NCBI GenBank assembly: GCA_905182865.1
Contig: CAJJCY010000004.1
Coordinates: 682,001 to 746,000, forward strand
Source of the DNA: an uncultured SAR324 cluster bacterium
Lineage (GTDB): Bacteria; SAR324; NAC60-12
Length of the DNA: 64,000 nucleotides
Direction: 5' to 3'
The stretch's first letter is position 1, and each line of letters starts with the position of its first letter. The notes beneath the pieces are model-generated. The model ran no database searches and was not told where the DNA came from. It saw only the letters and a program-made list of their open reading frames with translations. Both the position numbers and the translations under genes were made by a program. Positions 1-43,334 of this stretch are shown in pieces.

Positions 1-390
1 GCAACCACTAGAACCACAAAGATCATCGGTTAATCCGTTATCACCACTTGTAGTCCCATTATCCCAAACCCATGTGTTACTAGTGGCTATGTCATTAGCT
101 CCAATCCATGATTCACCATATGGAATGCGGAATATAGCTGTCAACCAGTCATTCTCTGCTTTAGTGTTTATTGTTGTAAGGTATCCTCCTAAAGCAGTTG
201 CAATGACTTTACCTTGTGCCCAAGTCGTGGCAGCACTTGTCAAAGCATAAGTGTGACCATTGAAGGTTTTCAAAACTTGTATATTTTGATCAAGGATAAC
301 ACTTGCAACAGAGGAGAGAGTTCCTGTTGTTAACAAGTTGACTTCATAATCCTGGTGTCCATCTGAAATTATGTCATCAACTCCTGTGAC
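1..390 (-). CDS. Fragment of surface protein: repeat end plus C-type-lectin-like domain, open at window edge
   Basis: Reading the minus strand from about 390 to 1 gives an uninterrupted frame. It begins with the end of a Calx-beta-like repeat (TVTGVDD, SDGHQDYEV) and then shows the hallmarks of a bacterial C-type-lectin-like domain: TWAQGKVIATALGGYLTTIN, then WIGAND and WVWDNG. In this family these are the early helix region with G-GYL, the WIG core strand and the WxW-type turn. The domain continues beyond base 1. C-type-lectin folds usually bind carbohydrate or protein ligands; the ligand here is unknown. There is no start codon of its own, so it is the downstream part of the broken gene starting at 4235. 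Confidence 0.6.
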
Positions 391-493
391 TGTTACTGTT
401 TGAGATGTTTCCAGTTGTTCGGCGTGAAAGTGAGGGTCGAAGGGTTGACGGTTGCTTCTAAGGTATTGCGACTTGCAACATCAACCGTAACAT

Positions 494-1213
494 CTATATC
501 ATTGTCCAGGTTATGCATCTCAACGATTGCACTTTTTGGGCATCGCAAGTACGAGTTATAAATGGAAAATCTGAAGAAGATTGAGGATTCAATGTTTCAT
601 ATGCTTTCCCCCCTGAATATGGATTACCATGACTTGTATATGGTAATCCTCCGACAATCTCAATGACATATTTAGTCCCTGAAACTAGCTCTGCCGGATC
701 ATCAAATTCAAAAAGTGTTAAATCTTGCCAATTACTTGAGTTACTAGGTCCACTGACAATTCCTCCTGATACTGAAAGCACCACACCATTGAAAGCCTGA
801 TTATAATCGTTATCAGTAACCCACTCCCTTATATTTAAATAAGCATCCTTGGCTGATGGATGAGTTGTATAGTAATTTTGAAATTCTACTGAAGTTAATA
901 TTCCATCAGATATAGCTGTAAAGCTTTGACCTTTCTGAGTTCCCGAAGTTCCTCCGGATGGAGATACATTATTAGAAGCATTAGTAGCACAATTAGTGAT
1001 TGCTGACAAGCTGATTTGATAGTCCTGATGTCCATCTGAATTTGAGTCATCAACTCCTGTTACTGTGACTGTTTGAGCTGTGTTCCAGTTATCCTCTGTG
1101 AAAGTAAGGCTTGATGGACTGACAGTTCCTTCTGCGGTATTACTGCTTGAAACTGCTACTGTAACATCTGTATCATCGTCAAGGTTGTGCAGTCCAACAG
1201 ATTGCACTTTCAC
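494..1213 (-). CDS. Fragment of surface protein: Calx-beta-like repeat and following beta-rich domain
   Basis: The fragment opens with the second half of a Calx-beta-like repeat: HNLDDDTDVTVAVSSSNT, then TVSPSSLTFT, NWNTAQTVTVTGVDD and SDGHQDY. This unit recurs in another frame at about 390-545 and in degraded form near 2560-2690. A beta-rich domain of about 150 residues follows (GQSFTAISDGILTSVEF, then FEFDDPAELVSGTKYVIEI), which resembles lectin-like sandwich domains of secreted proteins. The last 17 residues are out of frame; the neighbouring frame continues the repeat. It is part of the gene starting at 4235. Confidence 0.55.
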   Translation of the reverse strand: MKVQSVGLHNLDDDTDVTVAVSSSNTAEGTVSPSSLTFTEDNWNTAQTVTVTGVDDSNSDGHQDYQISLSAITNCATNASNNVSPSGGTSGTQKGQSFTAISDGILTSVEFQNYYTTHPSAKDAYLNIREWVTDNDYNQAFNGVVLSVSGGIVSGPSNSSNWQDLTLFEFDDPAELVSGTKYVIEIVGGLPYTSHGNPYSGGKAYETLNPQSSSDFPFITRTCDAQKVQSLRCITWTMI

Positions 1214-1452
1214 GCAGTTAATCTTCCACCCAGACGAATCTCTGAAATCTGTACTACATTATTTGCTTGACGTGTTGTTTCAAATACCAATTTATAATAC
1301 TGATATGCAGTACTATTATTGAATCTGACATTGGCATAATTAGTTTTACGAGAGGTCGGCGGGTTTAAACCAGCATTCGCAACTATCGAAGCCCAACTAC
1401 TTCCGTCATTTGATCCATACAGAGAAAAACTGGTTGGATCTCGTCCGTCCAC
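1210..1452 (-). CDS. Fragment of surface protein: F5/8 type C (discoidin)-like domain
   Basis: The 80-residue piece reads DPTSFSLYGSNDGSSW, later QYYKLVFETTRQANNVVQIS and EIRLGG. The order W/DP-x-SF-LYGSNDGSSW ... Y-YYKL ... QISEI-L is typical of the C-terminal two thirds of discoidin or F5/8 type C domains, which bind sugars or lipids. The first third is not readable in the same frame upstream. The stop-side end overlaps the next fragment by four bases in another frame, so this is one gene broken by an indel and not a separate protein. Confidence 0.5.
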   Translation of the reverse strand: MDGRDPTSFSLYGSNDGSSWASIVANAGLNPPTSRKTNYANVRFNNSTAYQYYKLVFETTRQANNVVQISEIRLGGRLTA

Positions 1453-1576
1453 ATCATTAGCAGTAGTTAAACCTAAAGTAGAAACAGTATATGTTGTACC
1501 TGAGTTAATGATTACGCCGGTACCTGCACCACCTGAATTATAACTCTTTGTTGAGGTGTTGCCGTCAAATGCCTTG

Positions 1577-2585
1577 TCAACACTTTCGCATAGTCATAAT
1601 CGACCCGCCAAAAATGGTATAAGCACTGCTGTTAAGGTTGTCAGTAATATCCCCTTCATCGGGAGAGTTGATAATTACATTATTACCAACGGTTACAAAG
1701 GTATTGTTTGCATAGATAACATCATACAGAGGAAAATATGTTGTGGTTGTTGTGGAAGTCTGAATTTCCCATGAGGCTCCATTATTCGTTGAGGTTAAAA
1801 TTTTTCCTGAAGCTGCTACTGCAACGAAAGTACTATTCCCGTAGGTAATTCCATTGATAGTAGTTGAATCTCCAGATGTTTTATTAAGCCATGTTGTTCC
1901 ATTTGTTGAGGTGAGGATGGTTCCCGATTCTCCGACCGCAACGAAAGTACCATTCCCGTAGGTAATTCCACTGAGATCTTTAAGAAGCCAATTGTATGTT
2001 GTAGCAGTCCATGAGGCTCCATTATCCGTTGAGGTGTGGATGATTCCATTTCCGTTGTTAGGTTTATCACCCACTGCCACCCATATGTTGTTTCCGTAGG
2101 TAATTCCATTGATATTTGCAGTTCCAGATGTTTTTTCAATCCATGAGGTTCCATTTGTTGAGGTGAAGATGTATCCTGAATTAGCCACTGTCACAAAGGT
2201 ATTGTTTCCAAAGTAGATACTATTTAAACGAGGGCTGCTGGTGGTTGATACATTTGTATTAGCCCATGAGGCTCCATTTAGAGGAGGTGAAAATTTTGCC
2301 ACTTGTGCCCACTTCCACAAAGAGATTGTTTCCATAGGCGACACCTTTAAAATCTTTGCTTACTCCAGAGTTAACATAATTCCAGTTAGTACCATTGTCC
2401 GTTGAATTATATGTCTTACCATCATTTCCCACTGCAACAAAGATGTCGTTTCCGTATGTGACACCATTCATTTGTACAGTTGGTGTGGTGTTAGCAGCAG
2501 CCCAATTGTCTGGAGGATGAATCTCGGAAACTCCTGCTGACAAGCTGATATTAGTATGCCTGGTGTCCATCTGAACTGTTGTCAT
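1577..2585 (-). CDS. Fragment of surface protein: YCF48/BNR-like beta-propeller repeats
   Basis: Two overlapping frames (2585 to 2259, then 2344 to 1577) encode at least six copies of a roughly 40-residue unit: NGITYGN-x-FVAVG-x-G-x-I-x-TSTNG-x-SW. Examples are NGITYGNNIWVAVGD and GITYGNGTFVAVGESGTIL. This is the signature of YCF48/BNR-type beta-propellers, secreted domains that usually bind sugars or proteins. One frame break lies between 2259 and 2344. The near-identical DNA of the repeats makes this stretch prone to slippage and to assembly collapse. It lies between the LamG-like region and the discoidin-like piece of the same broken gene. Confidence 0.6.
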
Positions 2586-2674
2586 CTATACCAGTAACTG
2601 TGACTGTTTGGGGGCTATTCCAGTTATTCGGTGTGAAAGTAAGGCTTGATGGACTGACAGTTCCTTCCGAATTG

Positions 2675-3445
2675 CTACTGCTGCTGACACTGACACTGAC
2701 ATTCTCCAGAAGGTGCGCTTTTCAGAGCAACACTGAATGTTGAAGTTGTACCATCTTCCTTAGTGTGACCGGAAATATTAGTGATGTTAAAGAGCTCACT
2801 GCTTGCATTACCATCGACCCAGTCAGCATCTGTCATATTTTTAAGGGTTCCAGTATATGAATTACTGCTGCTATCGGCCAAAGCAGTACCACTGCCATCA
2901 TTCATTTTGTAATATGCAACCAAGCCAGTTTCACTTCCGAAAGTTCTTTATTCATATTGGCTTGGATTTCTGCTTGGGTACGGGCGACATTCCAAATGCG
3001 GACTTCGTCCATTTTGCCGTTAAAATATTCATTATTACCAAAATTATCATATCCAATAGCAACACTGGCTGAACTTGCATGTATTAACATCCATGGGCAA
3101 CGAATCGGAAATAATTTCTAATTCACCATCAACATAAATAATTGAATCAGCTATATTAGGAGTTCCATCGTTAAAGAATGTAACGGCTACATGGTGCCAT
3201 TCTCCATCTCTTAAATCAGTAGACCCAATCTTATACCCGGAATTGACTTCTGCTTTTATCACGCCTGGGGCGCCATAACTGCCGTTGTTGATTCGTATCC
3301 CAAATTTTTGTCTGATTGTGTTCGCCCCCCACATAGTTAACGTCCCTGTATTTGAAGTTTTAACCCACAATTCCACCGTTCTAGAATTGGTTCCAGTCAC
3401 ACCTGTATAGCTTGAAACTTCTACAAAATCATTCGTACCCATCAA
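2675..3445 (-). CDS. Fragment of surface protein: LamG/concanavalin-like domain
   Basis: Three overlapping frames (3445-3047, 3090-2902, 2923-2675) read as one LamG-like domain. Visible are RTVELWVKTSNTGTLTMWG, DGEWHHVAVTF, IIYVDGELE, NGKMDEVRIWNVARTQAEI and VAYYKMNDGSGTALADSSSN. The order (sheet with W, DG-W-HVAVTF, YVDG, DEVRIWN-AR-qAEI, Y-mdeGsG--l-D-S) is that of concanavalin/LamG domains of bacterial surface proteins, which often bind glycans and calcium. An ISGHT-EDGTTSTF repeat follows. At least two indels separate the frames. Confidence 0.65.
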
Positions 3446-3489
3446 AATTCGAGTGCTTTGTTATGAACACAGTAGGAGCCGCTGGAGTT

Positions 3490-3850
3490 GCAGGAAATGG
3501 TGAATCATCCTTCAGTGCAACACTGAATGTCGAAGTTGTTCCGTCTTCTTAAGTGTGTACCGGACTGCAGCTGATAGCTATAGAAATTACTGTTGGTGCT
3601 GTGGGAGCTGCAGGAACTGCTGGAACTGGTGATTCATCTAAGTGCAACATTGAAAGTAGACGTTGTTCCTACTTCTGAGGTGTGACCTGAAGGGTTGCTG
3701 ATGTTGATAGAATTCACTGCTGGGAGCAGTTGGATCAGAAAGAACTGCAGTAAAAGGTTGATCATTCAGGACAACATTGAATGTTGAAGTTGTTCCATCT
3801 TCTACAGTATGACCTGAAATGTTGCTGATGGTATAGAAATCACTGCTAGG
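3490..3850 (-). repeat. Tandem Calx-beta-like half-repeats in the surface protein
   Basis: Several imperfect copies of a unit reading SNISGHTVEDGTTSTFNVVL lie here: near 3775-3840, near 3640-3710 (SGHTSEVGTTSTFNVAL), a damaged one near 3500-3590, and one further on near 2710-2800. Each encodes the first half of a Calx-beta-like domain. Frames change between copies, and the region 3445-3638 has no long open frame, consistent with collapsed or partly deleted tandem repeats. Confidence 0.55.
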
Positions 3851-4235
3851 TACTTTTGGAGCAGTAGCAGTTTTGGGTACACCTGAAGACAATGTCCCTG
3901 CATTGGTGAGAGTGCCTTCAAAATTTGCATTTCCGTTAATGTCTAATGTACCACCACTTTGGACTTCAACATTTCCTGATAATTGATCCTCCAAAACCAC
4001 TCCAAAATACTAAAGTCCCCTGACCAATGATATAGTCCAAGGCCAAATTCGATCCACATCCAGATTGATCACTGTTATTGTATGTACCAAATGTAGATTG
4101 TTCAGTGAGATCTCCGTCGGTGGTGGAAACACATTGGTTGGATGTCGCCTGCAGCATAGTAAACAAAGCTCCACCACCAAGCGCCAGAAGCACAAGCAGA
4201 TAACGTGGTTTCAGAATTTTGTTTAAAAATTTCAT
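3638..4235 (-). CDS. N-terminal part of the surface protein: signal peptide and autotransporter-like linker
   Basis: The start at 4235 gives MKFLNKILKPRYLLVLLALG followed by GGALFTMLQA, a clear signal peptide. The frame changes near 3970-4000. It continues as VEVQSGGTLDINGNANFEGT and LTNAGTLSSG, a G-T-L beta-helix-like linker common in secreted proteins, and then reaches the first ISGHT repeat. The start lies 32 bases after the stop of the lipoprotein gene on the same strand, so co-transcription is likely. Confidence 0.6.
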
Positions 4236-4267
4236 AAGGTTATGCTAATTACTTAAGAAAATGCCAT

Positions 4268-5976
4268 TTATTTACCGAATACAGAAGAATTTTGTAGGTC
4301 CCCAGTCCACTGCATCAAGGTTGAAGATAAATTGTCTCCAACAGAAACATTGTCTGAACGTACAATAGAGTTATTTTCCACTTGAATAAAAAATACCGCC
4401 TGCGGATTTAAGGCCGTTGAGTTATCAAGGCCCGGCTTAAAGTCATATGGTCCGTAAGTTATGTTATCGCTCAATCCAGGACCGGACAAAACAAGCTGAA
4501 AATTCTGCACATCTGGATCAGTCACGTCCTCAACATAAAACAGATAAGTTCCATTACCGACTTTTTGACCGTGTGTAGCCCAAATTTGTGTCTCATTGTC
4601 AGAAGGACTGGTTCCATCAATAAATTGGATCGTGTCTCCAGTTACTGAATATTTTTTATTGGCCGCATTGCTGTAAACCCAATAGCGCGGTCCCCTCGAA
4701 GTATTATCAAAACTGCCATTTGTTGTTTCTTCATTATATGTCCAATTCCGGAAAATAATATGAGTGCAGGTCCAGATCAAGTCCATCAGTCCAGGAAAGT
4801 GACAAACACATAGTATCTGAGTCAATGCAGGCATCATAACCAATTTACCCATTGTCAGAATTTTGGATTCATCATTTACAGTGAGAACTATTTGAAGTTC
4901 ATTTGAACCGTGAATCAAAGGCAAATATGAGGCTGTTAAAAATTCTGTAGTGTAAGTTACATTGTCTGTGCTTTCCGCCGTTTTTGTCCAAATGGAAAGG
5001 TCAACCGGCGGAGTAACATCAACAATAGTGTTTCCGGTTATCCGCTTGACCTGCATCAGGGAGATAATTTGGGTAACATTGTCTTTAAGATCATAGGGTA
5101 CATTCAGTACCAGAGTCCCGCTTGCCGTCGCATATGGAGAAGTACCCACTTGCGAAATACTCATGTTATCAAAACTTAACCAGTCAATATCTACATAGTT
5201 TGGCGTTAACTTAACATCAAGTGTCTCTGTCTCGCTGCTTACTAGAAATGCTTGATCTGCAGGAATAAATCCCATTATTTCAACATCATAACTATAAGAA
5301 TCGTAAACAACATTTGTAAACTCAACAGACTTGCTACCATTGTCTGCAGAGGTGATAGTGAATGATTTGTTATCCGTTAGCACACCAGACCCAGAATTGA
5401 GCTTGGCGGTTCCTTTACTGCCGGTAAAAATACCTATACTGCTAATACTGCTGATTTAAGTGTAACCGTTGAATAGGAAGTGGTCCAGAATTCAACTGAA
5501 ACAGTTTTAGCGATCGTTTCTGAATCAATCGAAAAAATACCGGATTCACCAAATCCTTCAGGTGCAGAGGTTCCTGCACCTAATTCATTGAGAGATAATG
5601 TCTCACGGTAAAAATAGAGGCATAGTTTGACTTGTGTATCAAGCGGTATCAACAATTTCACGTTTTGAGTAGTAATATCTACCAACGCCCGGCTATATTC
5701 TGAACCTGAATTCGCAGAACTGGACTCACATTTAACTGCAGGCATCAAGACGGCCAAAATGGTTACGGCATCACTGCTGGTCATACTGTGTTCCGATCCA
5801 TGCGTAAAATTTGGTGCCAGTTTTGAGTGTGCCGCTTTCCGATAAGACACATCGTCAAGGTTGATTTTCAGTGCAGCATAGCCGCTCGTTTCCGTTTCGA
5901 CATCTGCACAGGACACCACAAGCACAAAGACCAGCAGTGTAAAAACAAGGACGTGTATGTTGAAAAAAAACTTCAT
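4268..5976 (-). CDS. Lipoprotein with DUF2135/YfaP-like domain, one or more frame breaks
   Basis: Starts at 5976 with a lipoprotein signal whose lipobox LVVSC puts the lipidated cysteine at residue 23. The frame breaks near 5450, where an AGCAGTAT unit is tandemly repeated, a plausible slippage site. The next frame runs SSIGIFTGSKGTAKLNSGSG into the 371-residue second part. Within that part, bases of about 4745-4850 read better one frame over, giving DTMCLSLSWTDGLDLDLHSY, so two further indels seem to cancel out. The SW-DGLDLDLH core followed by GPRYWVY and NGTYLFYVED resembles DUF2135/YfaP domains, secreted beta-sandwiches of unknown role. It lies 21 bases after the FecR gene and just before the giant surface protein. 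Function unknown. Confidence 0.65.
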
Positions 5977-5997
5977 TTTATAATGTCTGTCAAGTTT

Positions 5998-6999
5998 CTA
6001 ACGATTAGTAAATGTCATGCTCAAGTTTAAGGTTTTGCTTGTTGCAGCATCAATTGCATTTTCTGCGTTTTCAACAATAGTTTCTAAGTCTTCTAATCGA
6101 TCCAACCGATCAAGTAATTCTCCATTAGTATCTGATTCTTCATCGAAGCGTGGAGTTTGATCCTCACTTTTCAACCGCTCCTTTATAGAACCAATAGGTT
6201 CAGACGGACCAAATTCAACTTCCTGAAAACTACCTGCACCATCCGCTTTAGCAATACTATCTCTTTCTTCAACAGAGACAGTCACAGGTACAGATGGTCC
6301 GGAACCTTCACGTACATGTGAAACCTCATTGGCCACCACCGGAATTTCATAATCCGGAACCTCCGGAGACGCCAGCGTAACTTCACCGGAAAGTGCCAGC
6401 AAATTTGTTGAATCTCCGCTGGTGGCAACAACAAACTCTGTCCCACGTACTCCCAAAATTGCCGAAACTGTGCGGACATTAAAACGCTTTTTTTTGCTGC
6501 GTTGTTTGGTTCTCACTAGTTTTGTCAGTTTCCCTTTAATAAGTTTTCCTCCCAACTTGGCAGTGAGTGTGTTTTCGGGAACTTTTTTATTTTCCTCGTT
6601 TTGATTCACCTCTTTCTCGTCTCCTGAAGACTCCGGAAGAGGTTTGACGCTGAAGTTACTTTTACCTGTCAAGAGGGCCACGCTGTTTTCTCCCTCCGAA
6701 AGGTCATCCAGTTTAAAAAAACTGTGAGAAAACAATTTCACTGTGTTATCCCTGTTTTTTAAGTAAACTGAGACTTGTGTATCTTTTCCAGTTTGTAAAC
6801 GGTCATTTGCCAACAGTGAATACGTTTCACCTGCTTTTTGTAAAATCATGCTTTTTCCGTTTCTAATCAACTTCACTATTCCGGAATGCAACTCCAAAGA
6901 ATTCTGTGCTCCTATTGCAATATTTTGTAGAAAAAACAAACCCACACAAACAGTTCCAATTAACCGAACTAATTTATTTTTTGAGATAATGAGTTGCAT
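5998..6999 (-). CDS. FecR-domain periplasmic protein
   Basis: About 333 residues from the ATG at 6999; a TTG 12 bases upstream is a weaker option. An N-terminal hydrophobic segment (LIGTVCVGLFFLQNIAIGAQ) looks like a cleavable signal. The FecR-type core follows: SGIVKLIRNGKSMILQKAGE, NDRLQTGKDTQVSVYLK and, after a charged lysine/glutamate-rich stretch, VSAILGVRGTEFVV with a second beta region. The C-terminal end is polar with a short coiled coil (LLDRLDRLEDLETIVENAEN). FecR domains of this stand-alone kind bind peptidoglycan or act as anchors; they are not restricted to iron signalling, and no sigma factor or TonB receptor is nearby. The context suggests an envelope component for the downstream lipoprotein and surface protein. 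Confidence 0.8.
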   Translation of the reverse strand: MQLIISKNKLVRLIGTVCVGLFFLQNIAIGAQNSLELHSGIVKLIRNGKSMILQKAGETYSLLANDRLQTGKDTQVSVYLKNRDNTVKLFSHSFFKLDDLSEGENSVALLTGKSNFSVKPLPESSGDEKEVNQNEENKKVPENTLTAKLGGKLIKGKLTKLVRTKQRSKKKRFNVRTVSAILGVRGTEFVVATSGDSTNLLALSGEVTLASPEVPDYEIPVVANEVSHVREGSGPSVPVTVSVEERDSIAKADGAGSFQEVEFGPSEPIGSIKERLKSEDQTPRFDEESDTNGELLDRLDRLEDLETIVENAENAIDAATSKTLNLSMTFTNR

Positions 7000-7275
7000 T
7001 TTATATTTCAAAGTTTAAATGGTTTGATAATAACTTCTGTTTTTTCCATATCCTTGCATTTTTAATATTAACTCTAACTTACACTTTACCTATACTTCCT
7101 TCCTCAAGAATTGAGCCATTATATTTTATTTCCAAATTACTTATTTAATATATTGTATTAATTAACTTTATTTCTTAATGTGTAATTAAATATTCTTGAA
7201 TTACAAGATTAACCATGTCCATTTATTAGACCCTTTTCTTTTCTTGTGACTATATTTTAATCATTAAAATTTTCT

Positions 7276-8526
7276 TCAAAACATCCAGATATACTGCACT
7301 GTTATTTGATTAGCCTTGTAGGATCGTGTCTCATCGTTGGAAGCCTGCTTAATTTGCTTCAGGTCTGCACCTGCTAGAGTCGAATTACTGAACGAATATT
7401 TAAAATTTAAAGTCATCTCATCTTTTTTGTTCTGCAAAACCAGATTTGATGCCGGATCAGCATTTTGGTATTGCTTATTATTATTTTGAAAATTAAAACC
7501 AAAAACCCACGGCGTCCATGAATATATTGTATTTACATTAAACAGTGTTGACTGAAAATCCTTGCTGGTATCTTCAAATTGTGTCGACTGTGAATCAATT
7601 CGCACCTGAAATCTAAAGTCTTCCCATCGCATTTTTGCTCCTAAAGATGCCAGTGTCAATGACCCGTCTTCTGAATTAGTTTTTACCTTATTCTGACTAT
7701 CAATCTGAATTTTCAGAGATCCAGAAAATTTGCTCCCCCAATCTTTTTTGCTGTCTAAAAAGAGAAAAAGTGACTGTAAATCTTCCCTGAATTCACCTGC
7801 TTTTTTAGGATCCGAAGGATTTGCATCCTTGACGCTGATTACGCTCTGACCCAACCCGGTTTTCAAATCAAGACCCAGCAGGTTTTTGTGCCTGTACTCT
7901 GTACTGTACTGCCGGAACAAAACTTCTTCAACAGCCAGGCTCCTGTTTTGGTGCCGGTCAAATTTGAGTACAGCATTTATGGAAACAGCTGATTCCTCAT
8001 TCAGTTCAAATGCATATCCGACCGACAGCAATAAATCATTTTTTGATGCACTTGTTAATGATTTACCTTCCTGGGTACTAAGAATATTGTCACTGTTTGT
8101 TTGCCCAAACATTACGACACCATTCAACGGAGGCTGTTTTTTCCTTTCCTTCTTTTGAGGTTCAAAAGTGACAATAAATTCCTGTTCACTCTGTCCTGTT
8201 TCTGTCTGTACATAAATCGTAAAAAGATTCTTCCCGGTTTTTAAATAAAAAGGAACTTCAATCTCAGCCCAGTCTGTATCCTCAGTTACCATTTGCGCAA
8301 ATCCGTTGACCTTGATCACCATGATTGGACTAAAAGTACTGACCTGAAACCGGAACCAACCCTCTGCAAGCACCTCTTTTCCCGGTGACGTGCGAAAAAT
8401 CAGAATTTCTTCAGGAACCTCCAAACTTTGCTCATTTTCATTCGTTTGCGCGTTTAAATAATTGATCCCCACCATAAATACAAACAACCAGATAAAAACG
8501 AAGGCCCGCAAATGCAAATAGTACAT
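7276..8526 (-). CDS. Predicted outer-membrane beta-barrel protein with N-terminal Ig-like domain
   Basis: 416 residues. A signal peptide (FVFIWLFVFMVGINYLNAQ) is followed by a small all-beta domain at residues of about 40-130, then a lysine-rich linker (KKERKKQPP). The rest is alternating amphipathic strands ending in YIWMF, a terminal phenylalanine typical of BamA-inserted barrels. No catalytic motif is seen and I recognise no named family. It begins 8 bases after the motB-like gene, so it almost certainly shares its transcript, and its outer-membrane location suggests a partner or exit point for the inner-membrane motor proteins. About 264-276 bases of AT-rich DNA separate it from the FecR gene, room for a second promoter. 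Confidence 0.7.
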   Translation of the reverse strand: MYYLHLRAFVFIWLFVFMVGINYLNAQTNENEQSLEVPEEILIFRTSPGKEVLAEGWFRFQVSTFSPIMVIKVNGFAQMVTEDTDWAEIEVPFYLKTGKNLFTIYVQTETGQSEQEFIVTFEPQKKERKKQPPLNGVVMFGQTNSDNILSTQEGKSLTSASKNDLLLSVGYAFELNEESAVSINAVLKFDRHQNRSLAVEEVLFRQYSTEYRHKNLLGLDLKTGLGQSVISVKDANPSDPKKAGEFREDLQSLFLFLDSKKDWGSKFSGSLKIQIDSQNKVKTNSEDGSLTLASLGAKMRWEDFRFQVRIDSQSTQFEDTSKDFQSTLFNVNTIYSWTPWVFGFNFQNNNKQYQNADPASNLVLQNKKDEMTLNFKYSFSNSTLAGADLKQIKQASNDETRSYKANQITVQYIWMF

Positions 8527-8534
8527 AGCTATCC

Positions 8535-10105
8535 TTAGCCTGCATTAGGTTCAGGAAAAAATTTTCTGGTTCGTTCTTTTTTAGTTGGACGAGTGAAAAT
8601 AAGTTCTACCCGTCGATTTGCTTTACGAGCTTTCTGCAATTCTCTACCGCTTTTTCGATTGCCGTTTTCACTGACATAAGATGTTTTGGGTCGGGTGTCA
8701 GCATATCCAGAAATTGCAATGCGTTCCGGATTAAATCCAACCTTTTCCATCATCAGTGCCGCAACATTTGTTGCCCGAACTGTACTCAGTTCCCAGTTAT
8801 TTTTATATCTTCCTTTTTTACTAAGGGGCACATCGTCAGTATGTCCATCCACCCTGATCGCATCCCCTTCCAGCTCATAACGATTTCGGATTTCATTTAG
8901 AAAACTGCTGAGCTGAACCTCAACTTCCTTCGAAATGGACGCACCTCCACTGAGAAACAAAAAACTGGAGGGCAGAGAAAGTATGCAGCGAGATTTACTG
9001 GCATTCAGCTCAAACGAAGAAAATGCCTCATTTTCTCTCAGGAAGCGATTGATTCCACTGCAATCTTTCATCTCCTGAGCACCAATGATGGTATTGACTT
9101 GTTTGGAAATTTTGCCAACATCCGCATTTAAAACAGAATTATCTTCCATCTCAATGATCAATGTTCGGGTTGCATACAAAGGCACTTCATCCTGGATGAC
9201 CTCTATTTCCACAGTCCCTTTTTCCGTGTAGGGATAGATCTCAATCGTTGCTCCATCCACGAAGCGGAAATCCTTCCTCTCTTTGGCAGTTCCAGCAAAC
9301 TTGAGTGGAATATCCGTTTTCACTCCACTGATAGGTGAAATATGTGCCGTTATATTTGAAATTCCTTTGTAAAGATCCCGACGCGCAATCTCAAAGGTTA
9401 CTGTAGGGAGGGGTTCATCATCCTGGATTATAATGCTCCTTGTTACAAAGTTCCCGCGTTCCACATCTCCCCGGAGCTTCCCTATTTGCACTAAGATTTC
9501 TTCAGGCTCCTCATACAGTTCATCGTTTACCAAGCACAGAGGGAAAGACGCCACATTCTCTCCTCCAGGGATTATGGCTAATTCCGCCCCTAAGACGTAA
9601 TCAAATTCTTGAATCTCTTTCGGATTTTTCGTTAATCCTTCACTTGTACACAGTTCCGGATCAACTGGGCCCCTCCTCGCGTTTCCTGCAAAAAATAAAG
9701 GGATCCTCAAATCTTCCTCTACTTTTTCATTGAGCAAAATCTCCACTTTCATGACACCCGCAGACTCTCCGACCTTTCCTGTGGCCATGCTTTCAATCAG
9801 GATCTGGGTTTTGTACAGACCGTTTGTTTTTGACCAAGAAGTGTTTCCAGTTTTTCCGTAAACATCTCTTTCGTATCAAAATACGTCCCTTTCATTGACG
9901 TAAAACCTTTGACAATATTTTCCGGCAAGCGACCCGTCAAATTACTTATTGTCTTTTCACTGACATTAAAACCTGTTTTAAGATCCACTTGTGGTTTATT
10001 AAACAGCGACAGATATACAAAAAAACAAAACAATAGGGTAATTAAGTCAGCGAATGTCATCATCCACTTCGCTTCTTTACTTCTGGTCTTCTTTTCTCCA
10101 AACAT
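8535..10105 (-). CDS. motB: MotB-like stator protein with inserted Calx-beta-like domains (one frame break)
   Basis: The N-terminal piece (10105 to 9797) has the MotB plug and single membrane helix: KEAKWMMTFADLITLLFCFF, in which Asp20 matches the essential ion-binding aspartate. The frame is lost near 9825, where a run of five As would need six. The other frame then reads TNGLYKTQILIESMATGKVG and stays open to 8535. The C-terminal OmpA/MotB peptidoglycan-binding domain is clear: VDGHTDDVPLS, NNWELSTVRATNVAALM, ISGYADTRP, ANRRVEL. Between the plug and this domain lie about 200 residues resembling two Calx-beta domains (FDYVLGAELAIIPGG, then FRFVDGATIEIYP), not a standard MotB part. About 523 residues in all. 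It follows motA by 88 bases and precedes the barrel gene by 8. Confidence 0.85.
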
Positions 10106-10193
10106 GTTTTCTTCTTATACGATTCACTTTTAGTACCTAGAGTTTCTGCCGACGTCAACAAGTTAAAACTAAGATCCTAGAACCATAACCCTC

Positions 10194-11056
10194 TCATCCG
10201 TACTGATCATCAAATTCGTCCCGTTTATGAGGAAGAAAATTGTGGAGTTCCTGAAGAATTGTGTATGGCGCTTCACGGCGTGCGATGCGATTTACGCTTT
10301 CACTAATCATTTCCAGCAAAATAAGATTGGATTCTTTCAGCTGCTTACGTTTTGATGCAATAGGCAATAAAACCATGTTAGAGAAAATCACACCGTAAAG
10401 TGTGGTCAACAAGGCCACTGCCATGGCTGGGCCAATCGATTTTGGGTCGCCCATGTTAGCCAACATCTGCACCAATCCGACAATTGTTCCAACCATACCG
10501 AATGCAGGTGCGGCGGTACCCATAAAATCAAATATTTCAATTTCTTCATCTGCACAGATGTAAAGAGAATCAAATTGGTTCAAGCTAGTATCAAAAGACT
10601 CTTCCTCAACTTGTTCCCGAACGATCAGTCCCTCTATCCAGCGGCGCATGAACGGATTTTCCAGGCTGCTGAGATCATCGTTGGTAATACGTTTCCCACT
10701 GTAACGTTTTTCTGCAATTATCTTGGATTTATCATAAATTTCCTGAGTTGCGGATTCAGCAACATCTGCTGCAAAAACCTTTGGAATGCTGCCAAAACTC
10801 CGTAAAGCCTTTTTGTATGGAAATGCAACAAAAGTAACCGAAATAGTGCCGCCAAAGACAATGAACAGCGATTTCAGGTCAAAAAACCGTAAGATTTGAA
10901 TAATGTACTTGTTTATTGACTCGGCATAACCAGCACTCTCAAGCCAGAGAGCTATATTAGAAAATTCAGCCGGCCATAGAATACCTGAAAGTATGAAAAC
11001 GTGCCGCCAATAAAGCCTAACAATGTACCTAATTTATCTGCGCTTTGTTGTTTCAT
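10194..11056 (-). CDS. motA: MotA-like stator protein (one frame break)
   Basis: Inner-membrane ion-channel partner of MotB. The start ATG at 11056 overlaps the stop of the FliG-like gene (ATGA), implying translational coupling. The first frame (MKQQSADKLGTLLGFIGGT) breaks near 10990 in a T run. The next frame is open to the end: HVFILSGILWPAEF, two early membrane helices, a cytoplasmic region, and the conserved C-terminal pair of helices GTAAPAFGMVGTIVGLVQML and AMAVALLTTLYGVIFSN. The proline and GT residues in APAFGMVGT and the LLTTLYG motif are those of MotA/PomA, distinguishing it from TolQ/ExbB. About 287 residues. No flagellar genes are adjacent. Confidence 0.88.
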
Positions 11057-12660
11057 GAATCCTTTTTCTCCCAAATTTTTCCAAGTTCGATATGAACATG
11101 TCGCATGAAAACATTCCGATGTAGATTCCTAAGCTGTTCTATCCGTAATTTAGCCTCTTCATCTTCCTCACGTTGTTTTTCATATCCCTGCAGTTGTTCC
11201 TGATAATATTTCCGTGTTTCTTCAGTATATTCCTTCATGATTTTTTCAGTTACTGAAGTATGAGAATCAAGTAGTAAGTACGGAACTGAAACCTTTGCTC
11301 CGGTACTTAATCGTGAACGTTCAAAACGCTCCATCACTCTTCCCACAAAAGCATCATCTATGATTTCGGTGCTTTCTAAATCTTCAAAAGAAAGGCTCCG
11401 CTCCCGAATTAGCTCCATAGCTTCGCTTGTATTTTTAGCTAATTCAGGATTCTTCTTTTTAAGTTCATCAGTACTCCCTAGAATATCGTTCCATTCCTCT
11501 GCACTTATCTGACCGGAAAGTTCTCCAATACGCCCTAGCCCATCAAAAGGCATGGGAAGATTTTTAGCAGACTCAGTCAGTTCATCTGCCAATTGCTGCA
11601 GATCACTAGGAGAAACGCTTATATCCTTCATGGTCAATACAATCCCCAAGGAATCCTCTACAGGCAGGCCCTTGAGAATATTAGCCATATCACTGGGGTC
11701 CATCTGACTAAAAACAATAGCCTGTTGATGGGGTTTAATTTCTTGCAGTAGATCAATACGAAGTTGTGGAGGCATCTTCCTGATGAACCCAAAGTAATCA
11801 ATTTTTTCTTCGTCATCCCCTGTATCTGCCTCCTCATCCGGAAGATCCAGTTCCTCTTCTTCGGCCTCTTCTTCAGGTGCCATGGCCTCAATGGCAGTGG
11901 CAACTTTACCCAAGGTGCCCTGCAGCGGATGTTCTTTTTCCTCTTTCTCACGGGTGCTGCGGGAGACAAAGAAAAACAATGCAAGTGTCAAAAGCAGCAA
12001 AACTCCGAGAGTTCCTATAATTGCCCATTGCACTGGTGTGATTGCATCAGTGCCTTCCGGTTTATATTCTGGAATCAACTGATCAACTCCAAGCATTTCA
12101 TAACCTGCAGGAAAAGTTGCACTGATTTCTGCCGCCTGCTTCAACTTCTCTTGTGCATTTACTGGTTCGTCACCATTCAAATCAGCCCTTGCTCCGACAA
12201 GTAAGTTTACATATTCAACCAGTTTTTCAGAAAAATCAGGACGTTCTATTTGCAATTTGTCCAAAACGATCGATTGTTCAAAACGATCCTGTGAGTTCAG
12301 TTCAGAAATTTCTGAACGAATACTCATTTCCACCTGATTCAAATTTACAGAATTGTTAACAGTTAAATTAATAATTCGATAACTAAACAGTGCTTGCACT
12401 TTATTTTCATCAGTTTTTATTTTGACTCCTGGTAGAAGATCACTATCTTTTTTGACAGGTTCATTATCCAGAACAGAATGCAGAATTACAGAAACATCGA
12501 TGTATTCTTCACTCAAAGATTTACGTAGAATTTTGTGGATGCGTTCCCTTATCTCAGGTTCAGGGCGACTGCGGCTTAATATTTCTGCATGCAGAATGTC
12601 GAAATTAAAAATTGTTAAAAGAATTATACATCCCGCAAAACTCAACAATTTTTTGTTCAT
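11053..12660 (-). CDS. Membrane-anchored FliG-like rotor protein with periplasmic domain
   Basis: About 535 residues from the ATG at 12660; ATG 12678 and TTG 12717 are also in frame. A signal sequence (NKKLLSFAGCIILLTIFNF) is followed by a periplasmic domain of about 180 residues, a membrane helix (AIIGTLGVLLLLTLALFFFV) at about residues 210-232, and an acidic linker rich in E and D. A cytoplasmic part follows that resembles FliG: PPQLRIDLLQEIKPHQQAIV with FSQMDPSDMANILKGLP matches the FliG middle-domain EHPQ-IA...LDP--AA-iL--LP pattern, and SLSFEDLESTEIIDDAFVGR matches the start of the FliG C-terminal torque domain. A charged coiled coil ends it. Normal FliG is about 330 residues and has no signal or membrane helix; this layout recalls FliF joined to FliG. 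Coupled to motA. The FliG match is by motif, so moderately sure. Confidence 0.72.
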   Translation of the reverse strand: MNKKLLSFAGCIILLTIFNFDILHAEILSRSRPEPEIRERIHKILRKSLSEEYIDVSVILHSVLDNEPVKKDSDLLPGVKIKTDENKVQALFSYRIINLTVNNSVNLNQVEMSIRSEISELNSQDRFEQSIVLDKLQIERPDFSEKLVEYVNLLVGARADLNGDEPVNAQEKLKQAAEISATFPAGYEMLGVDQLIPEYKPEGTDAITPVQWAIIGTLGVLLLLTLALFFFVSRSTREKEEKEHPLQGTLGKVATAIEAMAPEEEAEEEELDLPDEEADTGDDEEKIDYFGFIRKMPPQLRIDLLQEIKPHQQAIVFSQMDPSDMANILKGLPVEDSLGIVLTMKDISVSPSDLQQLADELTESAKNLPMPFDGLGRIGELSGQISAEEWNDILGSTDELKKKNPELAKNTSEAMELIRERSLSFEDLESTEIIDDAFVGRVMERFERSRLSTGAKVSVPYLLLDSHTSVTEKIMKEYTEETRKYYQEQLQGYEKQREEDEEAKLRIEQLRNLHRNVFMRHVHIELGKIWEKKDS

Positions 12661-12743
12661 AATACGAAAAATGTTCATGGATAATTTATTTTTTTTACTT
12701 GAAATAAATAATTCCAAAAGATTACAGTTTTTTTTACATTAAA

Positions 12744-42041: not shown

Positions 42042-42989
42042 TTAACCACCGATACGAGACATGACAAGAGGAGAACCAGTGAATGCTGCATCTTGTTTGT
42101 AGGAAATCGATTTTTGGACAAGTTTTTGGAGAGGTTCTTGCGGATCTGAATGTTCCAATAAATGACGAATTGAGAGCGGTGCAGGATTACTCAGGCAACC
42201 GATGAGTTGGCCGTTGGAAGTCAGGCGTAAACGGGAACAAGTGGAACAAAAAGGTGCGCTGTTGTTTGGAATAATTCCAAAATACCCTCCAGTGACCCCA
42301 TAGCGAAGTGAAGTTGAGTCAACTTCTGCTGAAACAGGCTGCACAGTATAACGTGTAGAAATTCGCTCCAGAATTTCATGCATTGTCACTAATTTAAAAT
42401 CATCTTTTTTATAAAGCGGGCCCATCGCCATCAACTCAAGGTAGCGTATTTCAACTCCTTGTCTAACACCATATTCAAGCATTTTAACGATTTCATCTTC
42501 ATTTTCACCCTTGACTACTACCATGTTGACCTTGACGCGCAGTCCAAATTTCATACATTCTTCAATTCCTTCCAGTGTTTTATGTAGTTTCCCAACTCGA
42601 CCTAAACGTTTAAATTTTTCCGGCTCAAGGGAATCAAGACTCAGGTTAACGTGTTGGAGACCTGCTTCAACAAGTGCTTTAGTTTTTTTGGCCAGCAATT
42701 GACCATTTGTGGTCATTCCGATGTTGCCAATACCCATTTCTCGAATACCAGAAATCACTTGAATCAAATTTGGGTAAAGAAGAGGCTCTCCGCCAGTCAG
42801 ACGCACCTTTTCAATTCCGGCATGTTCTTTAAGCATCCGGACAAGTCTCAACATATGATCTGCACTCAACTCATCAGGTATACGCCTGTGATCACTCAGG
42901 CTGGTGACACAGTAAGTACAGGCCATGTTGCAGACCTCTGTGAGAGAAATACGAAGTTTATTAATATTGCGACCGTGAAGGTCAATCAT
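42042..42989 (-). CDS. moaA: GTP 3',8-cyclase MoaA
   Basis: 315 residues from ATG 42989; the longer frame to 43007 begins inside the ribosome-binding site (AAAGGAG, 7 bases before ATG 42989) and is rejected. Radical SAM enzyme making cyclic pyranopterin precursor for molybdenum cofactor, with MoaC. RISLTEVCNMACTYC gives CxxxCxxC for the SAM cluster; VRLTGGEPLLY, GMTTNGQLLAKKTKALVEAG and NLSLDSLEPEKF follow. The second cluster site is FCSTCSRLRLTSNGQLIGCL, and the tail SRIGG is the MoaA GG ending. No other molybdenum gene is in the window. Likely controlled by the RNA element just upstream. Confidence 0.95.
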   Translation of the reverse strand: MIDLHGRNINKLRISLTEVCNMACTYCVTSLSDHRRIPDELSADHMLRLVRMLKEHAGIEKVRLTGGEPLLYPNLIQVISGIREMGIGNIGMTTNGQLLAKKTKALVEAGLQHVNLSLDSLEPEKFKRLGRVGKLHKTLEGIEECMKFGLRVKVNMVVVKGENEDEIVKMLEYGVRQGVEIRYLELMAMGPLYKKDDFKLVTMHEILERISTRYTVQPVSAEVDSTSLRYGVTGGYFGIIPNNSAPFCSTCSRLRLTSNGQLIGCLSNPAPLSIRHLLEHSDPQEPLQKLVQKSISYKQDAAFTGSPLVMSRIGG

Positions 42990-42994
42990 GGAGG

Positions 42995-43092
42995 TTCTCC
43001 TTTCCAAAGCCGGGAGGCAGATCAGTTTTCCAACCTACCCTATCGTTCGCCAAACCGTGACTACCGCGTTAGGTTTTGGCGAATCGGAGATT
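42995..43092 (-). promoter_or_regulatory. Molybdenum cofactor (Moco) riboswitch candidate
   Basis: Read on the minus strand, the moaA leader has AUCUCCG at its 5' end (43091-43085) able to pair with GGAGA at its 3' end (about 42997-43001), closing the element over the moaA ribosome site. Inside is a 9-bp hairpin CGCCAAAACC (43081-43072) with GGUUUGGCG (43056-43048). The conserved-looking stretch GCCUCCCGG and GGAAAGGAGA matches my recollection of Moco RNA motifs, which sit before moa operons and control translation. Structure pairing is seen directly; family assignment is from memory. Confidence 0.62.
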
Positions 43093-43334
43093 AATAAATT
43101 ATTGAATTCTAATTTGTAACGTTGAGACTATTTCAGTTGTAGTATTTAGTCAAGCTCTATATTAGAAAAATATTTTGATTATTAAACTGAAATTTGCTTT
43201 TATTTGGCAGGTCTTTTAAAATACAATTAAATAATTTGAATTAAACAACTTCAGGGTTAAAAGGTAATCCACTCAATTTACAAGACCGGCAACATTATTC
43301 CTGCTTATATCAAAGCTCAATCAATTCACATCAA

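Follow-up and report, generated by a model that had tools for sequence, protein, structure and literature searches.

We know of no FliG-type rotor for GldLM, the motor of Flavobacterium gliding, and of no FliG-like part for the AglRQS-Glt apparatus of Myxococcus gliding. In the GldLM-SprB system, which belongs with type 9 secretion, an ion-driven motor of the 5:2 type is tied to a giant mobile surface adhesin (PMC9389320). AglRS has been assigned to the generic group rather than to the flagellar-type one (PMC12505986). According to a 2025 survey, 11% of non-motile species carry rotor proteins but lack filament proteins, and the survey raised the question of whether such rotors serve some other purpose (PMC12199754). 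The searchable literature, with preprints and most subscription journals outside the search, yielded no account of a non-flagellar MotAB with a FliG, in agreement with a preliminary description of the DNA studied here, which had held that non-flagellar stators have no known FliG-like partner.

Here, we analyzed a 64,000-nucleotide stretch of DNA (the window) from a 3.2 Mb genome in five contigs, the closest named records of which are SAR324 / Lambdaproteobacteria. An operon in the window resembles the flagellar motor core in its MotA/PomA-type stator, the Asp residue and OmpA domain of its MotB, its FliG_M and FliG_C domains and, within its wider family, a FliF-like periplasmic domain. In contrast to that core, the operon is without FliM/FliN, export gate, rod, hook and filament genes, its rotor would be one membrane protein in which the FliG torque charges are not conserved, and it runs into outer-membrane and adhesin genes. 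With AglRQS-Glt it has in common a MotAB-related motor apparently used across the envelope. The likeness to GldLM-SprB, a motor linked to a giant adhesin, is for the window operon a lead from the genes alone, whereas no gldK/N or sprA-type genes were seen with the operon and its MotA is PomA-like. A further SAR324 gene cluster, designated cluster B, has a related MotAB, a FliF-like periplasmic domain and a membrane-anchored FliG, but comprises a number of individual periplasmic proteins as well as TPR parts, a short MotB without the Calx-like insert, and no window-type OMP, FecR or adhesin genes. The anti-phage system Zorya (ZorAB) also contains MotA/MotB homologues. However, the similarity is confined to the OmpA domain of the window MotB, which scores to ZorB, and a marginal ZorA score, and no ZorC/D/E genes were seen with the operon; a role in Zorya defence was therefore ruled out.

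The operon and its copy in the window

The operon reads on the minus strand from position 12717 to position 1, with the following features.

11053..12717, minus strand: FliG-like putative membrane rotor protein, 554 aa, conserved start at 12678; assigned by sequence, profile and fold
10194..11056, minus strand: motA, stator A subunit of PomA/MotP-like type; lacks one base near 10998
8535..10105, minus strand: motB, one gene, with a transmembrane helix bearing the Asp, a Calx-beta-like insert and an OmpA domain; one G missing near 9819
7276..8526, minus strand: outer-membrane beta-barrel (OMP), 416 aa, Porin_4-like, C-terminus ...QYIWMF
5998..7011, minus strand: exported FecR-domain protein, conserved start at 6999
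4268..5976, minus strand: lipoprotein, ~560 aa, all-beta model; an indel near 5454 splits the frame into two ORFs
1..4235, minus strand: start of the giant surface protein, with LamG/ConA-like domains, a C-type lectin and beta-repeats; frame-broken in the assembly

All seven parts named in the preliminary description were thus found on one strand between positions 1 and 12717, and the tight spacing that it reported was re-measured with identical values. The FliG-like gene and motA overlap by 4 bases (ATGA, 11056-11053), and gaps of 8, 21 and 32 bases separate motB from the OMP gene, the FecR gene from the lipoprotein gene, and the lipoprotein gene from the adhesin (ATG at 4235), respectively. 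The gaps between motA and motB (88 bases) and between the OMP and FecR genes (276 bases) are wider. Tol-type genes, lpxB and tldD flank the operon on one side, and the remainder of the adhesin on the other. As previously described for the operon stretch, flagellar genes are absent, including those for the export gate (FlhA, FliP), rod, hook and filament; none occurs in the window, and no flagellar cluster adjoins the operon. Flagellar genes are present elsewhere in the genome, with flhA and fliP on other contigs. The window also contains, at 42981-43101, a riboswitch for the molybdenum/tungsten cofactor (RF01055, 63.5 bits), which lies upstream of a gene resembling moaA.

In the window copy, the frames of motA, motB (a G lost from GGG) and the lipoprotein gene are broken at the positions listed above, and that of the adhesin is broken many times. 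The breaks are single-base indels that are missing from the relatives, as seen from their intact single ORFs and from base-level comparison, and the motor genes are intact in the genome G001, whose FliG-like protein is 96% identical to that of the window. A single-base indel was also found in flhA of the window genome, and other core genes of the assembly are likewise affected. Since the relatives are intact and flhA of the same genome is broken too, the breaks are likely to be assembly errors, and programmed frameshifting was ruled out by the intact frames of the relatives. The plug, Calx-like and OmpA parts of MotB belong to one 523-aa gene, and the ORFs 5434-5976 and 4268-5383 to one lipoprotein gene. 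In addition, a motA patch of ~170 bases (10420-10590) is unlike all relatives and reads PomA-type (GLVQMLANMGDPKSIGPAMAVALLTTLYG), which would reflect either mosaic assembly or recombination; gene conversion from the genome's own flagellar MotA was rejected, as no DNA match was found.

For the FecR-domain protein, the nearest named models are the Leptospira surface proteins Lsa33 and LipL45, and a fold search with the lipoprotein returned generic Ig-like beta matches only. The adhesin of the window genome extends ~41 kb beyond 4235, past the window edge, and its parts include LamG and PKD domains as well as, in this genome, a C-type lectin domain. In the relative G004, the adhesin is an intact single frame of 9,479 aa (46328 to 17889 on contig C3; loci L037 1-6329, L196 and L198 14890-18999, equal to G004:C3 17889-46328), which lies directly downstream of the motor genes and is, to our knowledge, among the largest bacterial proteins.

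The FliG-like protein and the stator

The first protein of the operon consists of an N-terminal signal or transmembrane segment, a periplasmic domain (residues ~45-200), a transmembrane helix (228-254), and cytoplasmic FliG_M and FliG_C domains. In profile searches, residues 308-523 matched TIGR00207 fliG (E=3.8e-6), and PDB FliG chains matched the protein with E=1.9e-5. Among 12 homologues, FliG_M was matched in 11 and FliG_C weakly in six, the FliG_M and FliG_C sequence scores being under the curated single-family cut-offs and backed by fold and profile comparison. FliG_N was also matched weakly in six of the 12, and the window protein has its own transmembrane helix instead. In a fold search with the AlphaFold model, which is weak (pLDDT 54), the best 13 PDB matches were all FliG, and the single domains fitted 4fq0 FliG_M (TM 0.83, 1.5 A), 1qc7 FliG_C (TM 0.64-0.71) and the MotAB-bound FliG_C 8ucs_H (TM 0.69). 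These profile, homologue, PDB and fold matches indicate that the FliG assignment exceeds chance. MgtE_N also scores on the protein; yet no MgtE pore follows, and the FliG fold matches rank well above MgtE, so that the reading as an MgtE transporter was rejected.

Comparison by hhalign related the periplasmic part to the FliF-like P3 family of cluster B (96%, E=1.7e-9) and the cytoplasmic part to the cluster B FliF/FliG fusions (98%, E=7e-13). Profile comparison of the window protein's periplasmic domain with flagellar FliF gave no significant direct match, and its link to FliF therefore runs through the relatives. In the model, which has low confidence here, the periplasmic part is predicted to follow a helix-strand-strand-helix order as in ring-building motifs. 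Judged from these alignments, the protein resembles a periplasmic part of the P3 type fused to a FliG part. The charges of the FliG torque helix are not conserved: K264, R281, D288, D289 and R297 are replaced by L, E, E, Q and K, respectively.

PomA and MotP, both of the sodium type, are the nearest kin of the operon's MotA (E=4.6e-37 for PomA versus 0.0055 for exbB2), a kinship from which sodium drive may be suspected. The ion-binding Asp of MotB is kept (D in TFADLITLLF), as are the equivalents of the MotA channel residues P173, T209 and P222. R90 and E98 of MotA (E. coli numbering) are Y/F and N in the window system, and are kept as R and E in all of the SAR324 flagellar MotA aligned. In a MotA tree of 50 rows, the flagellar MotA of the same SAR324 genomes grouped in its own clade (97/97), apart from that of the non-flagellar MotA (91/89), inside which the window-system MotA was monophyletic (100/100); the split of MotA from ExbB/TolQ was 100/100. 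MotA R90/E98 and FliG R281/D288/D289 changed together in the SAR324 non-flagellar systems, whereas both sets are retained in the flagellar pairs, as they are in L171/L172, a pair from outside SAR324. We read this pattern as a MotA-FliG interface that would be matched but altered in the SAR324 non-flagellar systems; alternatively, the changed contact residues could represent a different kind of stator-rotor coupling. In the genome's flagellar-type locus (L047 8007-10187), two motB genes stand in tandem behind motA.

Distribution within and outside SAR324

The order FliG-like, MotA, MotB, OMP is kept in the ten relatives with enough sequence, and FecR and the lipoprotein in seven and six, respectively. 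This set spans three genera, one of which (g8) carries the operon at another genomic site with ~49% identity. The operon was found in 11 of the 17 genomes of the window's genus, its own included, and in two other genera, some of the MAGs being incomplete. The conservation of gene order, a point raised in the preliminary description, thus extends through FecR and the lipoprotein to the adhesin in SAR324 relatives, and the operon is real and conserved. Two genomes, G041 and G042 (L102 6641-8461, L103 8023-8883), contain FliG-like proteins without an adjacent stator, beside efflux and phosphate-transport genes.

Cluster B, found in three families, has the order MotA-MotB-P1-lipoprotein-P2-P3-FliF/FliG fusion, and FliG_M and FliG_C are present in all ten members of the fusion. 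P2 resembles the FliF C-terminal domain, the YscJ_FliF_C match being weak in cluster B, and one periplasmic domain is common to P2, P3 and the fusion. A third type, a MotAB/FliG-fusion cluster, occurs in G021 (L101, G021:C11, 5151-18001); it lies just upstream of contractile-injection-system-like genes (tail-sheath-like, tube-like).

In a strict search of 331 non-SAR324 genomes, related modules were found in at least eight: three with separate MotA-MotB-FliF-like-FliG, three with a FliF/FliG fusion near MotA/MotB, and two with a fusion and no adjacent MotAB. FliF_C (YscJ_FliF_C) scored above the cut-off in the looser relatives L171, L173 and L174, and FliG_C was strong in L173 and L174. Neither FlhA nor FliP was found in five of the outside genomes with modules (completeness 86-98%), and four of these five have MotAB beside or near the rotor gene. 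In L174 and L175, from genomes without FlhA or FliP, the fusion is followed by MotA, two MotB genes unlike each other and a gene resembling histidine kinases, and a PorV-like outer-membrane gene adjoins the fusion in L173 and L174. The outside modules are looser relatives, which would support the class and not the exact window system, and the sequence comparisons place the window system as one variant of a wider MotAB + FliF/FliG family.

FlhA is present in 51 of 52 SAR324 genomes, the sole exception being an incomplete genome, and the window genome has its own FliF, FliG, FliP and MotA/MotB elsewhere. Since the host is flagellated with motor genes of its own, the window system would be an extra motor. 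Therefore, of the suggestion that such a set occurs in genomes without flagellar genes, the part that stands concerns the looser relatives in the five genomes without FlhA and FliP; the window variant itself was not seen in genomes lacking flagella.

A candidate envelope motor and alternative readings

The operon combines motor gene content and homology with a conserved gene order and a separate stator lineage, and is likely to represent a distinct non-flagellar stator-rotor gene set. Its identity as a motor is well supported; ring formation, rotation, the torque path and the adhesin as load are what we infer from it. We propose that the operon probably encodes a dedicated non-flagellar, ion-driven envelope motor, composed of MotAB and a FliF/FliG-type rotor, that would deliver torque to the envelope. 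The stator would be built from MotA and MotB, five A to two B as in their family, and held to peptidoglycan through the MotB OmpA domain. The FliG-like protein, which we think rather likely to form the driven ring, would sit in the inner membrane through a helix of its own, a single chain thereby covering both the FliF jobs of ring and membrane anchor and the FliG job of contacting the stator. Driven by ion flow, the stator would turn against this protein's FliG domain, and the ring would transmit torque by way of its periplasmic domain to the FecR, lipoprotein and barrel proteins, whereby the giant surface protein would be moved or tensioned. Torque is probably passed on to the adhesin; that the giant surface protein is the load of the motor is a tentative assignment, and surface motility or adhesin drive, as put forward in the preliminary description, has the shared operon as its sole basis. 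The adhesin may merely be co-transcribed with the motor genes.

The sharing of the operon with OMP, FecR, lipoprotein and giant secreted protein genes, the Tol-type genes that adjoin it in the window's genus and the loss of the FliG torque charges would also fit an energiser of the TolQR/ExbBD type, in which MotAB, by pulling on periplasmic and outer-membrane partners, would serve adhesin export, loading or release, and the FliG-like protein would regulate or act as a scaffold instead of as a rotor. We consider this unlikely, because MotA falls with flagellar-type stators and not with ExbB/TolQ, MotB carries a peptidoglycan anchor, both FliG_M and FliG_C are retained, and MotAB + FliG recurs outside SAR324. 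Slightly less likely again is a flagellar accessory, in which the extra stator and a ring of the FliG-like protein would surround or sit on the flagellar motor and contribute torque, sensing or a scaffold. The window operon lies away from flagellar genes, takes its stator from a separate MotA clade with contact residues unlike those of the flagellar pair, and continues into outer-envelope and adhesin genes, and looser relatives of it are found in genomes that have neither FlhA nor FliP, all of which argue against such an accessory; pointing towards it are the presence of FlhA in all SAR324 genomes tested but one and the position of cluster B within the window's genus, near fliOPQ in G016 and ~10 kb from fliP in G000 (C1 573-577k and C1 585k, respectively). 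Finally, the broken frames of motA, motB, the lipoprotein and the adhesin might suggest decaying or mis-assembled remnants without function. This is very improbable and largely refuted by the intact genes and kept order in about ten relatives, and the same kind of indel hits other core genes of the assembly.

The occurrence of related cores in bacteria without flagellar export genes suggests that the flagellar rotor serves other purposes as well. It is quite possible, if short of probable, that MotAB and a ring of the FliF/FliG type make up a rotary machine in its own right, employed by several flagellum-less lineages, with one SAR324 version incorporated in an envelope apparatus for moving a surface protein of about one megadalton. 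Conserved MotAB + FliF/FliG operons in flagellum-less genomes provide a concrete, testable answer to the question asked by the 2025 survey (PMC12199754). Such operons bear on the origin or dismantling of the flagellum, and offer a candidate means of powering giant surface proteins in a marine lineage.
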